A stretch of DNA of 64,000 nucleotides from an uncultured Brevundimonas sp. GTDB lineage: Bacteria > Pseudomonadota > Alphaproteobacteria > Caulobacterales > Caulobacteraceae. Under the pieces are notes generated by a model. That model was not told the DNA's origin, searched no databases, and saw nothing but the letters and a program-made list of their open reading frames with translations. Positions within the stretch are counted from its first letter, which is position 1, and the number at the start of each line of letters is the position of its first letter. The stretch is taken from the NCBI RefSeq assembly GCF_947305955.1, contig NZ_CAMZFB010000009.1, positions 1 to 64,000 on the forward strand, written 5' to 3'. Positions 8,214 to 20,099 of this stretch are shown here, in pieces. Made by a program: the position numbers and the translations under genes.

Positions 8214-8747
8214 TTATTCGGCAGCGGCAATCGCCGAGGCGATGATGCGGCTGGCGGCGTGGACGACGGCACCGATACGCAGTGCGGCCTGAACCTGAAC
8301 AGCGGCCATGCCGTGCTTGCGCAGTTCGCCTTCGTGGGCGTCAAGGCAGCCACCGCAGCCGTTGATGGCCGACACAGCCGTGGCCCACAGCTCGAAGTCC
8401 AGCTTCTCGACGCCCGGATTGGCCAGGGCGTTCATGCGCAGCTTGGCCGGCAGGGTCTGGTACTCATGGTTCTTCATGAGGTGCAGGGCGCGGTAATAGA
8501 TGTTGTTCATGCCCATGATGGCGGCCGCGGTCTTGGCGGCGTTCATGGCTTCCGGCGACAGGACGGTCGCAGCTTGGGCTTCGATCAGCTTGACCACTTG
8601 CGGCACGCCGATGGCGTGGGCCGAAGCGAGGAAGCAGCCCCACTTCTGCTGGTCGTTCAGAACGGTTTCGTTCGCGAGCGACGAAAGGTTCAGCGAGATG
8701 TCCTTGGCATAGGACGGGATCAGTTCGCGCAGGGCATCGATGGACAT
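8214..8747 (-). CDS. ahpD: Alkyl hydroperoxide reductase AhpD (carboxymuconolactone decarboxylase family)
   Basis: AhpD is a thiol hydroperoxidase and the adaptor that returns electrons to AhpC in organisms lacking AhpF. The 177-residue length fits the family. The active-site C131-GG-C134 with the proton-relay residues E119 and H138 (NGCGGCLDAHE) is intact. The ATG at 8747 is chosen because GGAG lies 8 bases before it and the protein then begins MSIDALREL as in relatives; longer in-frame starts have no support. It follows ahpC on the same strand with a 184-base gap containing a hairpin. Confidence 0.93.
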   Translation of the reverse strand: MSIDALRELIPSYAKDISLNLSSLANETVLNDQQKWGCFLASAHAIGVPQVVKLIEAQAATVLSPEAMNAAKTAAAIMGMNNIYYRALHLMKNHEYQTLPAKLRMNALANPGVEKLDFELWATAVSAINGCGGCLDAHEGELRKHGMAAVQVQAALRIGAVVHAASRIIASAIAAAE

Positions 8748-8863
8748 GGGGTGAACTCCGAAAGGGAAAAGCTGTCGCGCGATCTGCGCGCCAAATCGGT
8801 TGCTGGCCCGGGATCGGGCAGTGAAAAGGCGGCAACGGTCACCCGCCGCCGCCCTCTCGACTA

Positions 8864-8890
8864 TTCCGGACAATACAAACGCGTCCGGAA
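8864..8890 (-). other. Hairpin in the ahpC-ahpD spacer
   Basis: TTCCGGAC (8864-8871) pairs with GTCCGGAA (8883-8890) across 11 bases, in the 184-base spacer between ahpC and ahpD. It has no U-run and is more likely an RNA processing or stability element that sets the AhpC:AhpD ratio than a terminator. This is inference. Confidence 0.4.
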
Positions 8891-8931: not shown

Positions 8932-9486
8932 TTAGGCAGCCAGGGTTTCGCCGCCAACCGGACGGTTGCAAGCGCACAGTTCGTCGGTTTGCAGGGCGTC
9001 AACGACGCGCAGGGTGTCTTCCGGCGAACGGCCAACGTTCAGGTTGGTGACGTAGACGTGTTGGACAACGTTGTGCGGGTCGACAACGAAGGTCGCGCGC
9101 AGAGCCACGCCGTTTTCTTCGTCCAGAACGCCCAGTTCACGAGCGAACTTGCCGCCGCAGTCAGCGAACTGCCACATCGGCAGCTTGTTCAGGTCGGCGT
9201 GGTCGCGGCGCCATGCCAGCTTGGTGAACTCGTTGTCGGTCGAACCGCCCAGAACCACGGTGTCGCGGTCTTCGAATTCTTTGTTCAGCTTGGCGAAAGC
9301 GGCGATTTCGGTCGGGCACACGAAGGTGAAGTCCTTCGGGTAGAAGAAGATGACCTTCCACTTACCTTCGAACGACTCTTGGGTGATGGCTTCGAAAGCC
9401 GAAACGCCGTCTTCTTCGTGGCTGTTGAAGCCCGGCTTCACGCCAGTGATTTTGAAATCCGGAAGTTTTTGACCGACGCCCAGCAT
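8932..9486 (-). CDS. ahpC: Alkyl hydroperoxide reductase AhpC (2-Cys peroxiredoxin, AhpD-dependent type)
   Basis: AhpC reduces H2O2, organic hydroperoxides and peroxynitrite in the cytoplasm. The 184 residues carry the peroxidatic C57 in FTFVCPTE and a C-terminal C171-x-C173 (DELCACNRP). That CxC tail is the type known from mycobacterial AhpC, whose partner is AhpD rather than AhpF, which agrees with ahpD being next in the operon. The ATG at 9486 is preceded by GGAG at a suitable distance; the frame extends further upstream but without homologous sequence. It is divergent from katG. Confidence 0.95.
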   Translation of the reverse strand: MLGVGQKLPDFKITGVKPGFNSHEEDGVSAFEAITQESFEGKWKVIFFYPKDFTFVCPTEIAAFAKLNKEFEDRDTVVLGGSTDNEFTKLAWRRDHADLNKLPMWQFADCGGKFARELGVLDEENGVALRATFVVDPHNVVQHVYVTNLNVGRSPEDTLRVVDALQTDELCACNRPVGGETLAA

Positions 9487-11995
<2,509 letters not shown>

Positions 11996-12074: not shown

Positions 12075-12983
12075 ATGAATCCCTATGTCGGCTCTATGCT
12101 CCCCTCACTCAGACAACTTCAGTATCTCAAGCTGCTTGCCGAGCATGGCTCCTTCAGCCGTGCCGCAGAGGCGGCCCACGTCAGCCAGCCTGCATTGTCT
12201 TCCGGTGTTCAGGAGCTGGAGCGTATTCTTGGCGCGCCGGTGGTAGAGCGCACGCGTGGTGCCGTTCTTCTGACCGCTGTCGGTGCCGAGGCCGTCAAAC
12301 GCGCCGAAGATGTTCTGGCCCGTACCGAAGATCTGGTCGAGGCCGCCCGCAATGCCGGAAAGCCGCTGTCGGGCCGTTTCCGTCTGGGCGTGATCCCGAC
12401 CGTGGCCCCCTATCTGCTGCCGCAAAAGCTGACAGGTCTGCGCGATCAATACCCTGCCCTTCGCCTGTTTATTCGCGAGGATCTGACGCCCAAGCTGATC
12501 GCGGGGCTGAAGTCCGGACAACTGGACGCTGCGGTCATCGCCCTGCCCTATGACGCGCCGGGCATCGACCACGCCCATATCGCCGATGATGAAATCCTCG
12601 CGGCGGCTCCTGTGGGTCATGCGCTCGATGGCGAAGGTCCGATCCCGCAGGGTGCCCTGCGCGCCGAGGATCTGATCCTTCTGGAAGACGGACACTGTCT
12701 GCGTGATCAGGCTCTGGCCGCCGTCAACATCGAGGCCCCGCGCGGCGAGGACGTCTTTGCCGCCACCACCCTGCCGACCTTGGTCCAGATGGTGTCATCC
12801 GGCCTTGGGGTCAGCTTCCTGCCCCAGATGGCGGTCACCGCGGGCCTGACGGACAATAAGGGCGTGGTTGTGCGCCCGATTTCCGAAGACGCCCCCCACC
12901 GCGAAATCGTGGTGGCATGGCGTTCGGGGTCCAGCCGCGCCGCCGAGGCGCAACTGCTGGCAGAAGCCCTTAAGATCTCCTGA
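12075..12983 (+). CDS. oxyR: OxyR-type LysR regulator with a single cysteine
   Basis: A LysR protein with the N-terminal winged HTH (LPSLRQLQYLKLLAEHGSFS region) and a periplasmic-binding-like sensor domain. The OxyR redox motif is recognisable as LEDGHCLRDQAL: C208 here corresponds to E. coli C199. The partner cysteine nine residues on (E. coli C208) is replaced by V217, and no other cysteine exists in the protein. The start may be the ATG at 12075 or at 12096 (giving MLPSLRQL); neither has a strong ribosome site. The position after katG supports a peroxide-response role. Intramolecular disulfide switching is not possible with this sequence. Confidence 0.88.
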   Translation: MNPYVGSMLPSLRQLQYLKLLAEHGSFSRAAEAAHVSQPALSSGVQELERILGAPVVERTRGAVLLTAVGAEAVKRAEDVLARTEDLVEAARNAGKPLSGRFRLGVIPTVAPYLLPQKLTGLRDQYPALRLFIREDLTPKLIAGLKSGQLDAAVIALPYDAPGIDHAHIADDEILAAAPVGHALDGEGPIPQGALRAEDLILLEDGHCLRDQALAAVNIEAPRGEDVFAATTLPTLVQMVSSGLGVSFLPQMAVTAGLTDNKGVVVRPISEDAPHREIVVAWRSGSSRAAEAQLLAEALKIS

Positions 12984-12993: not shown

Positions 12994-13148
12994 ATTTGTC
13001 ACCCAGCATTCGAACGTACGACGTACATCGAATACCGTTCCGGTGACCCTCTATTGCGACCCTATTCTTTATGTGGGAAAGGCCTCGCACACATATTTTG
13101 GCGGCCTTTTGCGAGGCTGTCGGGGATACCACACACAGGTCAACGCTG

Positions 13149-15731
13149 ATGCTGCAACACTATCGCGAACACGTTGCCGAACGTGCGGCTCTGGGCATTC
13201 CGCCCCTGCCGCTTTCGGCCCAGCAAACTGCTGAACTGATCGAACTGATCAAGGCTCCGACCGCCGAAGCGTCGTCGGAAGAACTGATCGAGCTGCTAGC
13301 TCACCGTGTTCCGCCGGGCGTTGATGACGCCGCCAAGGTCAAGGCCTCCTTCCTGTCGGCTGTGGCCCACGGCGACTTCGAGGTTCCGAACCTGTCGCGC
13401 GAATACGCCACGCAACTGCTGGGCACCATGGTTGGTGGCTATAACGTCAAGCCGCTGATCGACCTGCTGTCGGACGAAGTGGTCGGCACCGTCGCGGCCG
13501 AGGGTCTGAAGAAGACCCTGCTGATGTTCGACTTCTTCCATGACGTGAACGAACTGGCCAAGGGCGGCAACGCCAACGCCAAGGCCGTGATCCAGTCGTG
13601 GGCCGACGCCGAATGGTTCACCTCGCGCGACAAGGTCGCCGAGAAGATCACCGTCACCGTCTTCAAGGTGACCGGCGAGACCAACACCGACGACCTGTCG
13701 CCGGCACCGGATGCTTGGTCGCGTCCGGACATCCCGCTGCACTATCTGGCCATGCTGAAGAACGCACGTCCGGGCATCACGCCTGAACAGGACGGCGTCC
13801 GCGGCCCGATCCAATTCATCGAAGACCTGAAGAAGAAGGGCCACCTCGTCGCCTACGTCGGTGACGTTGTCGGCACCGGCTCGTCGCGTAAGTCGGCCAC
13901 CAACTCGGTGATCTGGGCCACCGGCCAGGACATCCCGTTCGTGCCGAACAAGCGCTTCGGCGGTGTGACCCTGGGCGGCAAGATCGCCCCGATCTTCTTC
14001 AACACTCAGGAAGACTCCGGCGCCCTGCCGATCGAAGTCGACGTGACCAACCTGAACATGGGCGATGTCATCGACATCTACCCGTACGAAGGCAAGATCG
14101 TGAAGGACGGAGAAACCGTCGCCACCTTCGAGCTGAAGTCGCAGGTCCTGCTGGACGAAGTCCAAGCCGGTGGCCGTATCAACCTGATCATCGGCCGTTC
14201 GCTGACCGCCCGCGCCCGTGAGGCTCTGGGTCTGGCTCCGTCGACCGAATTCCGTCTGCCGGTCGTGCCGAACGACACCGGCAAGGGCTACACCCTCGCT
14301 CAAAAGATGGTCGGTCGCGCCTGCGGCCTGCCGGAAGGCCAAGGCATCCGTCCGGGCACCTATTGCGAACCGCGCATGACCACGGTCGGCTCGCAGGACA
14401 CCACTGGCCCGATGACCCGCGACGAGCTGAAAGACCTCGCCTGCCTCGGCTTCTCGGCCGACATGGTGATGCAGTCGTTCTGCCACACCGCTGCCTATCC
14501 GAAGCCGGTCGACGTCAAGACCCACCGCGAACTGCCGCACTTCATCTCGGATCGCGGCGGCGTGGCCCTGCGTCCGGGCGACGGCGTGATCCACTCGTGG
14601 CTGAACCGCCTGCTGCTGCCGGATACGGTCGGCACCGGCGGTGACTCGCACACCCGCTTCCCGATCGGCATCTCCTTCCCGGCTGGCTCGGGTCTGGTCG
14701 CCTTCGGTGCGGCCACCGGCGTGATGCCGCTGGACATGCCGGAGTCGGTTCTGGTGCGCTTCAAGGGCGAAATGCAGCCGGGTATCACCCTGCGCGACCT
14801 CGTCCACGCCATCCCGTACTACGCCATCAAGCAAGGTCTGCTGACCGTCGCCAAGGCTGGCAAGATCAACGCCTTCTCGGGCCGCATCCTCGAAATCGAG
14901 GGCCTGCCGAACCTGAAGGTCGAGCAAGCCTTCGAACTGACCGACGCCTCGGCTGAGCGTTCGGCTGCCGGTTGCACCGTCAAGCTGAACAAAGAGCCGA
15001 TCATCGAGTACATGACCTCGAACATCGTGCTCATGAAGAACATGATCGCCGACGGCTATCAGGATGCCCGCACCCTGCAACGCCGTATCGACGCCATGGA
15101 AGCCTGGCTGGCCAACCCGAACCTGCTCGAAGCCGATGCCGACGCCGAATACGCGCACGTCATCGAAATCGATCTGGCCGAGATCAAGGAGCCGATCCTG
15201 TGCGCTCCGAACGATCCGGACGATGCCCGCCTGCTGTCGGAAGTGCAGAACACCCAGATCGATGAAGTCTTCATCGGTTCGTGCATGACCAACATCGGCC
15301 ACTTCCGCGCCGCCTCGCTGCTGCTGAAGGGCAAGAAGGACATCCCGACCCGTCTGTGGGTCGCCCCGCCGACCAAGATGGACGCCTCGGAACTCACCAA
15401 GGAAGGTCACTATTCGACCCTCGGCGGTGCTGGCGCCCGTATGGAAATGCCGGGCTGCTCGCTGTGCATGGGTAACCAGGCTCAGGTGAAGGAAGGCGCG
15501 ACCGTGGTTTCGACCTCGACCCGTAACTTCCCGAACCGTCTGGGCAAGGGCTCGAACGTCTTCCTGTCGTCGGCCGAACTGGCCGCCGTGGCCTCCAAGC
15601 TGGGCCGCCTGCCGACCGTGGAAGAGTACATGGCCGAAATGGGCGTCATCAACGAGAACGCCGCCGACGTGTACCGCTACATGAACTTCGACCAGATCGA
15701 AGAGTATGCGGACCGTGTTGCTGCTGAGTAA
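13149..15731 (+). CDS. acnB: Aconitate hydratase B (AcnB), also 2-methylisocitrate dehydratase type
   Basis: A 860-residue AcnB that interconverts citrate and isocitrate using a [4Fe-4S] cluster. The AcnB-specific layout is clear: N-terminal HEAT-like domain, swivel domain ([29 protein letters not shown]), then the catalytic domains with cluster cysteines in [10 protein letters not shown] and [10 protein letters not shown]. The ATG at 13149 is chosen because it gives [14 protein letters not shown], matching known AcnB starts; an upstream in-frame ATG at 13071 would add 26 residues without homology. Possible operator dyads (GTACG-A-CGTAC at 13016-13026) precede it. Caulobacter-type genomes often rely on AcnA, so a second aconitase here is notable. 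Confidence 0.97.
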
Positions 15732-17215: not shown

Positions 17216-19915
<2,700 letters not shown>

Positions 19916-20099
19916 GTGAGGGTCCTCTGACAAATGCCGCCCGGAAATTCGGTTGCACCTTCGCGCGTCGGACGAAAGGGCACACAGGTCCCTTGCGCGC
20001 GCGGCGAAAGCCTGCTGCGGCGTATTGGCATATAAGCATGCCCGTGGGGCACGTCCATGTATCCACACACATGACGGGGATATTGAGAGAGGTTCGCAA

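Follow-up and report, generated by a model that had tools for sequence, protein, structure and literature searches.

A Brevundimonas OxyR with the peroxidatic cysteine alone: a candidate one-cysteine peroxide switch and its apparent natural revertants

The stretch of DNA analysed here (64,000 nucleotides of an uncultured Brevundimonas sp., hereafter the window) encodes an OxyR that adjoins a katG/ahpCD cluster (Table 1), as the preliminary description of this DNA had stated. On its other side, oxyR is followed directly by acnB (13146–15731, + strand), which also follows oxyR in the relatives L089, L090, L092, L119, L120, and L202. A second aconitase-like gene (17216–20068, − strand), judged by eye from the list of open reading frames (ORFs), lies nearby; aconitases are peroxide-sensitive iron-sulfur enzymes.

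Table 1. Positions of the oxyR gene, its redox residues, and the neighbouring peroxide-defence features in the window.
Feature	Position	Strand	Basis
oxyR, LysR-type regulator with a single Cys, 302 aa	12075..12983	+	ORF list, alignment, NCBIfam, Pfam, AlphaFold model
Cys208 codon TGT, equivalent of E. coli C199 (peroxidatic)	12696..12698	+	C in 127/127 genus genomes
Val217 codon GTC, equivalent of E. coli C208 (resolving)	12723..12725	+	genus: F/L/V/I 120, C 7 (n = 127)
katG, catalase-peroxidase, same strand, directly upstream of oxyR	9803..11995	+	NF011635, 1206.8 bits
ahpC-like peroxiredoxin, divergent from katG	8932..9531	−	best model AhpC TIGR03137, 119 bits, below cut-off of 272
ahpD, alkylhydroperoxidase, divergent from katG	8214..8873	−	TIGR00777, 235.8 bits, above cut-off
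OxyR-box-like candidate site, ahpC-katG divergent promoter region	9605..9641	+	12/16 consensus letters

The regulator matches the Pfam families HTH_1 (PF00126, 67 bits) and LysR_substrate (PF03466, 154 bits), both above cut-off. Its best NCBIfam model is the OxyR equivalog NF008361 (212.9 bits, under the 329-bit cut-off); four two-Cys OxyRs of the same family likewise remain under it (201–212 bits), so the cut-off excludes the whole family branch, not the one-Cys form. Many relatives match from residue 7 or 8 only, so translation may start at the second ATG (codon 8, position 12096). An AlphaFold model of the protein is nearest to reduced OxyR structures (Z 24–26), a likeness to be read with the caveat that AlphaFold models carry no redox-state information. 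No second OxyR was found in the genome; the next-best LTTR match is just 29% identical, and a second copy that has taken over the function is therefore rejected.

The sole Cys of the window OxyR, C208, lies within LEDGHCLRDQALAAVNIEA; it is the C of GHCLRD, that is, the peroxidatic position. Nine residues further on, where E. coli OxyR carries its own C208 and a two-cysteine disulfide switch its resolving Cys, the window OxyR has V217. The HMMER alignment with E. coli OxyR (1i6a) contains a one-residue gap that places E. coli C208 opposite N218, and the ungapped alignment with two-Cys relatives places their resolving Cys opposite V217; neither residue is Cys, so the partner is lacking under either alignment. 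The preliminary description had read a single Cys at the C199 position with Val at the C208 position, and had concluded that the classical intramolecular disulfide cannot form. Both points stand: a replacement Cys elsewhere in the protein was sought and none is present, and, because the resolving Cys is absent, a disulfide of the C199–C208 type is excluded on sequence.

The genome falls with Brevundimonas, and nearly all of that genus shares this state. OxyR was matched in 129 of 131 Brevundimonas genomes, and residue 217 was read in 127 (two partial matches were omitted, as was a divergent second OxyR-like copy, L214, from a contaminated genome). C208 is present in all 127, and residue 217 is F in 53, L in 34, V in 23, I in 10, and C in 7, that is, the resolving Cys is absent from 120. 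An isolated base-call error, which the preliminary description had named beforehand as fatal to its reading, is thus ruled out. The residue that replaces Cys is F, L, V, or I without exception; the single-base neighbours of TGC also encode S, Y, G, and R, which occur in none of the 120 genomes. Fifteen of the 127 rows lack Cys at 217 but have additional cysteines, most often at residues 152 and 74 (L111, L116, L150, L153–L155, L157, L168, L170, L175, L176, L185, L188, L194, and L205). The omitted L214 (contig 3 of G285, a genome with 5% contamination) is an OxyR-like protein, 60% identical, that carries GDCFRAQ and has Ala in place of the resolving Cys.

Whether relatives have both cysteines, also raised in the preliminary description, receives a divided answer in the Caulobacterales: nearly all Brevundimonas relatives share the loss, whereas every Caulobacter, Phenylobacterium, and Asticcacaulis row read (from an unselected list) has both. 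The OxyRs of these three genera are orthologues (~59–69% identity), and many are encoded beside ahpC and/or ahpD. We surveyed more widely with DNA patterns for E/D-D-G-H-C-L-R-D/E, which OxyRs with other motifs escape. The motif occurs in 26 of 289 alphaproteobacterial genomes, with the resolving Cys present in 23 and absent in 3, all from this genus. In a phylum sample it occurs in 50 of 299, 45 with the Cys and 5 without (4 from this genus and 1 that is not OxyR); the latter, G739, was rejected because its frame reads by eye as glutathione-transferase-like. True loss of the resolving Cys was thus seen solely in Brevundimonas in this motif-based phylum survey. As a separate observation, the OxyR of Marinicauda pacifica (L065:4001–4903), outside the genus, has Ala at the resolving position and three Cys in total, a separate loss.

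The seven Cys-bearing genomes have more than one history. In an OxyR tree built without the residue-217 column, all 119 non-Cys rows fall inside one clade (support 99), and two Cys-bearing lineages are nested in it: L102/L104/L128/L132 and L208. Two further Cys-bearing members that carry the genus code, L211 and L213, lie outside the clade, and their Cys is simply the ancestral state. By itself, the OxyR tree does not reject a topology in which the nested lineages branch apart from the non-Cys rows (AU p 0.12 and 0.20). That topology is rejected (p 7e-7 and 5.5e-4) by a RpoB-RpoC tree of 38 of the 43 genomes searched (one had no match, and four were fragmentary and left out). The RpoB-RpoC tree pairs L102/L104/L128/L132 with an F-type species (99/97), and the exact placement of L208 is poorly supported (55/38). 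Parsimony requires 3 changes if change is free and 10 losses if regain is forbidden. The F217 codon is TTC in 51 of 53 cases, and the four-member group has TGC, one base away. Horizontal transfer of a two-Cys oxyR into this group is disfavoured, since its OxyR lies inside the genus clade (100/97), at ~84% identity to that of the window. Because trees, parsimony, and codons fit, we read the history as a single basal loss in Brevundimonas followed by two regains; this is an argument from parsimony, not a proof. The genus-wide state, the apparent natural revertants, and the restriction of the replacement to bulky hydrophobic residues go beyond the preliminary description.

The protein that lacks the resolving Cys is nonetheless constrained. 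G206, H207, L209, R210, A213, L214, T235, and P250 are unchanged in 127/127 genus OxyRs, and T109, E135, T138, and R276 in 126/126 readable rows; two-Cys relatives carry identical letters in 45/45 except at L209 (44), A213 (41), and L214 (43), a comparison set in which both cysteines are present by construction and which includes Peiella L028, with the same genus code. Values of dN/dS across ten oxyR pairs are 0.03–0.20, which indicates that the gene is maintained under purifying selection. These data bear on an alternative in which the regulator would be blind to peroxide, that is, a locked repressor or a constitutive activator, with C208 retained because structure or DNA binding requires it, and with peroxide defence at a basal level or under other control. 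The likeness of the AlphaFold model to reduced structures would agree with this, redox state being something that AlphaFold does not report, but the entire peroxidatic surroundings are invariant, not the Cys alone, and the resolving-site Cys has apparently been regained twice, which would be odd for a dead sensor. We consider this alternative unlikely.

The genome neighborhood and its promoters also have been retained. In 77 genus loci the sequence extends 2.5 kb or more upstream of oxyR; katG is found there in 47, ahpC in 12, both in 8, and neither in 10; that is, 67 of the 77 have katG and/or ahpC. In the main L217 clade (most L-type loci, L156–L196), katG lies on the strand opposite to oxyR and is merely 58–60% identical to katG of the window, so gene order and katG type vary between residue-217 clades. 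Promoters were scored against what we take to be the OxyR-box consensus, ATAG-N7-CTAT twice, from E. coli work. With this E. coli-derived consensus, the best site in the window reaches 12/16, a score equalled by 4 of 300 shuffles. Upstream of ahpC, where identical regions were entered once and Marinicauda was excluded, the mean score is 11.54/16 for 37 one-Cys regions vs 11.75 for 28 two-Cys regions, and four control patterns average 9.08–10.27/16; scores of at least 13 occur in 9 one-Cys and 6 two-Cys regions and in at most 1 for any control. In one clade the score rises to 15/16. The promoter test is weak at individual loci: several F- and L-type ones score no higher than shuffles, and two control patterns score at least 11 in 18 of the 37 one-Cys regions. 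The retention of OxyR-box-like motifs and katG/ahpC neighbours likewise speaks against a peroxide-blind regulator.

The AhpC-type peroxiredoxin encoded nearby is in keeping with another alternative, in which C208-SOH would be resolved by C208 of the neighbouring subunit or by a peroxiredoxin such as AhpC (a relay). A model of Neisseria meningitidis OxyR puts C199/C208 near the dimer–dimer interface (PMC2881104), as would suit a disulfide between subunits. However, the one-Cys OxyR of Deinococcus reportedly made no intermolecular disulfide in vitro (PMC2225504), although the Cys it retains is the C208-type one. We regard a disulfide with such a partner as improbable.

We think it somewhat likely that the window OxyR is a working one-cysteine switch, with C208-SOH or its glutathione mixed disulfide as the signal. 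C208 would most likely react with H2O2 to give the sulfenic acid (C208-SOH); with no resolving Cys, the signal would be C208-SOH itself or a mixed disulfide with glutathione. The modified C208 would shift the DNA-bound tetramer at the katG/ahpC promoters, and the thioredoxin or glutaredoxin system would return it to its starting state; the same genome encodes glutathione synthetase and three glutaredoxin-family matches above cut-off. The bulky hydrophobic residue 217 may fill the pocket that the resolving Cys holds in some reduced OxyRs. The resolving Cys of reduced Shewanella OxyR is described as sitting inside a completely nonpolar cavity (PMC8787470) and that of Neisseria OxyR as buried, with the E. 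coli one exposed (PMC2881104); by analogy, a nonpolar or buried site suggests a reason for the limit to F, L, V, and I. The output would probably be activation, not derepression. We favour a live sensor that acts through C208-SOH or its mixed disulfide because the peroxidatic surroundings and the regulon have been kept and the resolving-site Cys has apparently been regained; the apparent return of Cys217, in two lineages, is consistent with a sensor that never gave up its active Cys.

Mutants of two-Cys OxyRs stand against this one-cysteine switch, as their activity needs the partner Cys. Pseudomonas aeruginosa OxyR C208A is reported not to respond to H2O2 (PMC13295329), N. meningitidis C208A keeps repression and loses activation (PMC2881104), and the C208S variant of E. 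coli OxyR no longer responds to polysulfide (PMC6831875). In addition, the conserved C208 could have a structural role instead, and the 10 of 77 long loci with neither katG nor ahpC upstream count against it. The same N. meningitidis report lends the peroxide-blind alternative some support, since C208A represses without activating; C199S, as described there, neither represses nor activates, which implies that the peroxidatic Cys does more than form the disulfide (PMC2881104). The P. aeruginosa study bears on a further alternative, in which C208 would sense sulfane sulfur (as a persulfide) or nitric oxide and not peroxide: it calls C199-SSH a ‘single-Cys activated state’ and gives basal katA/ahpC expression of C208A as similar to that of the wild type (PMC13295329). 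This we judge very improbable, as the katG/ahpC neighbours point to peroxide and the E. coli C208S loss of the polysulfide response cited above counts against it.

A broader reading of the one-cysteine switch is that the built-in resolving Cys gave way to an external Cys, supplied by glutathione or by a peroxiredoxin such as AhpC. A disulfide latch would then have become a mixed-disulfide switch, and evolution could pass from either mode to the other. We offer this tentatively, as a possibility that is rather doubtful at present; it is suggested by the apparent return of two lineages to the built-in Cys, one of them apparently by a single base change.

Among known systems, E. coli OxyR (C199/C208) shares with the window OxyR the LysR-type fold, the LEDGHCLRDQ motif with the peroxidatic Cys, the katG/ahp context, and an OxyR-box-like promoter motif; it differs in having a resolving Cys, without which the window OxyR forms no intramolecular disulfide. 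Bacillus subtilis OhrR, of the unrelated MarR family, is a repressor that dissociates. Like the window OxyR it has one Cys, and it is described as a peroxide sensor whose single Cys forms a stable sulfenic acid (PMC526781). DrOxyR of Deinococcus radiodurans (DR0615) also has only one conserved Cys, which reportedly forms a sulfenic acid and is required for the peroxide response (PMC2225504). That Cys, C210, is stated to be the counterpart of E. coli C208 (PMC2881104), and the authors put the missing Cys back as T201C (PMC2225504). DrOxyR thus kept the C208-type Cys, whereas Brevundimonas kept the opposite, peroxidatic one: the single Cys of the window OxyR is at the C199 position, not at the C208 position that characterizes the DrOxyR type. 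Searches of the open-access literature gave no report of a natural OxyR whose sole Cys is the peroxidatic one, and for Brevundimonas OxyR neither a paper nor expression, redox, or binding data.

Since ~2002 it has been disputed whether the disulfide is indispensable to OxyR or a modified C199 (-SOH, -SNO, -SSG) is active by itself (PMC2881104, PMC526781, PMC6831875). Brevundimonas, with the peroxidatic Cys alone and sister species in which the second has apparently been regained, provides a natural comparison for this dispute. If its OxyR answers peroxide, it must have compensated for the missing partner Cys; if it does not respond, the conserved Cys requires another explanation. A one-Cys OxyR could also inform the design of OxyR-based peroxide probes.
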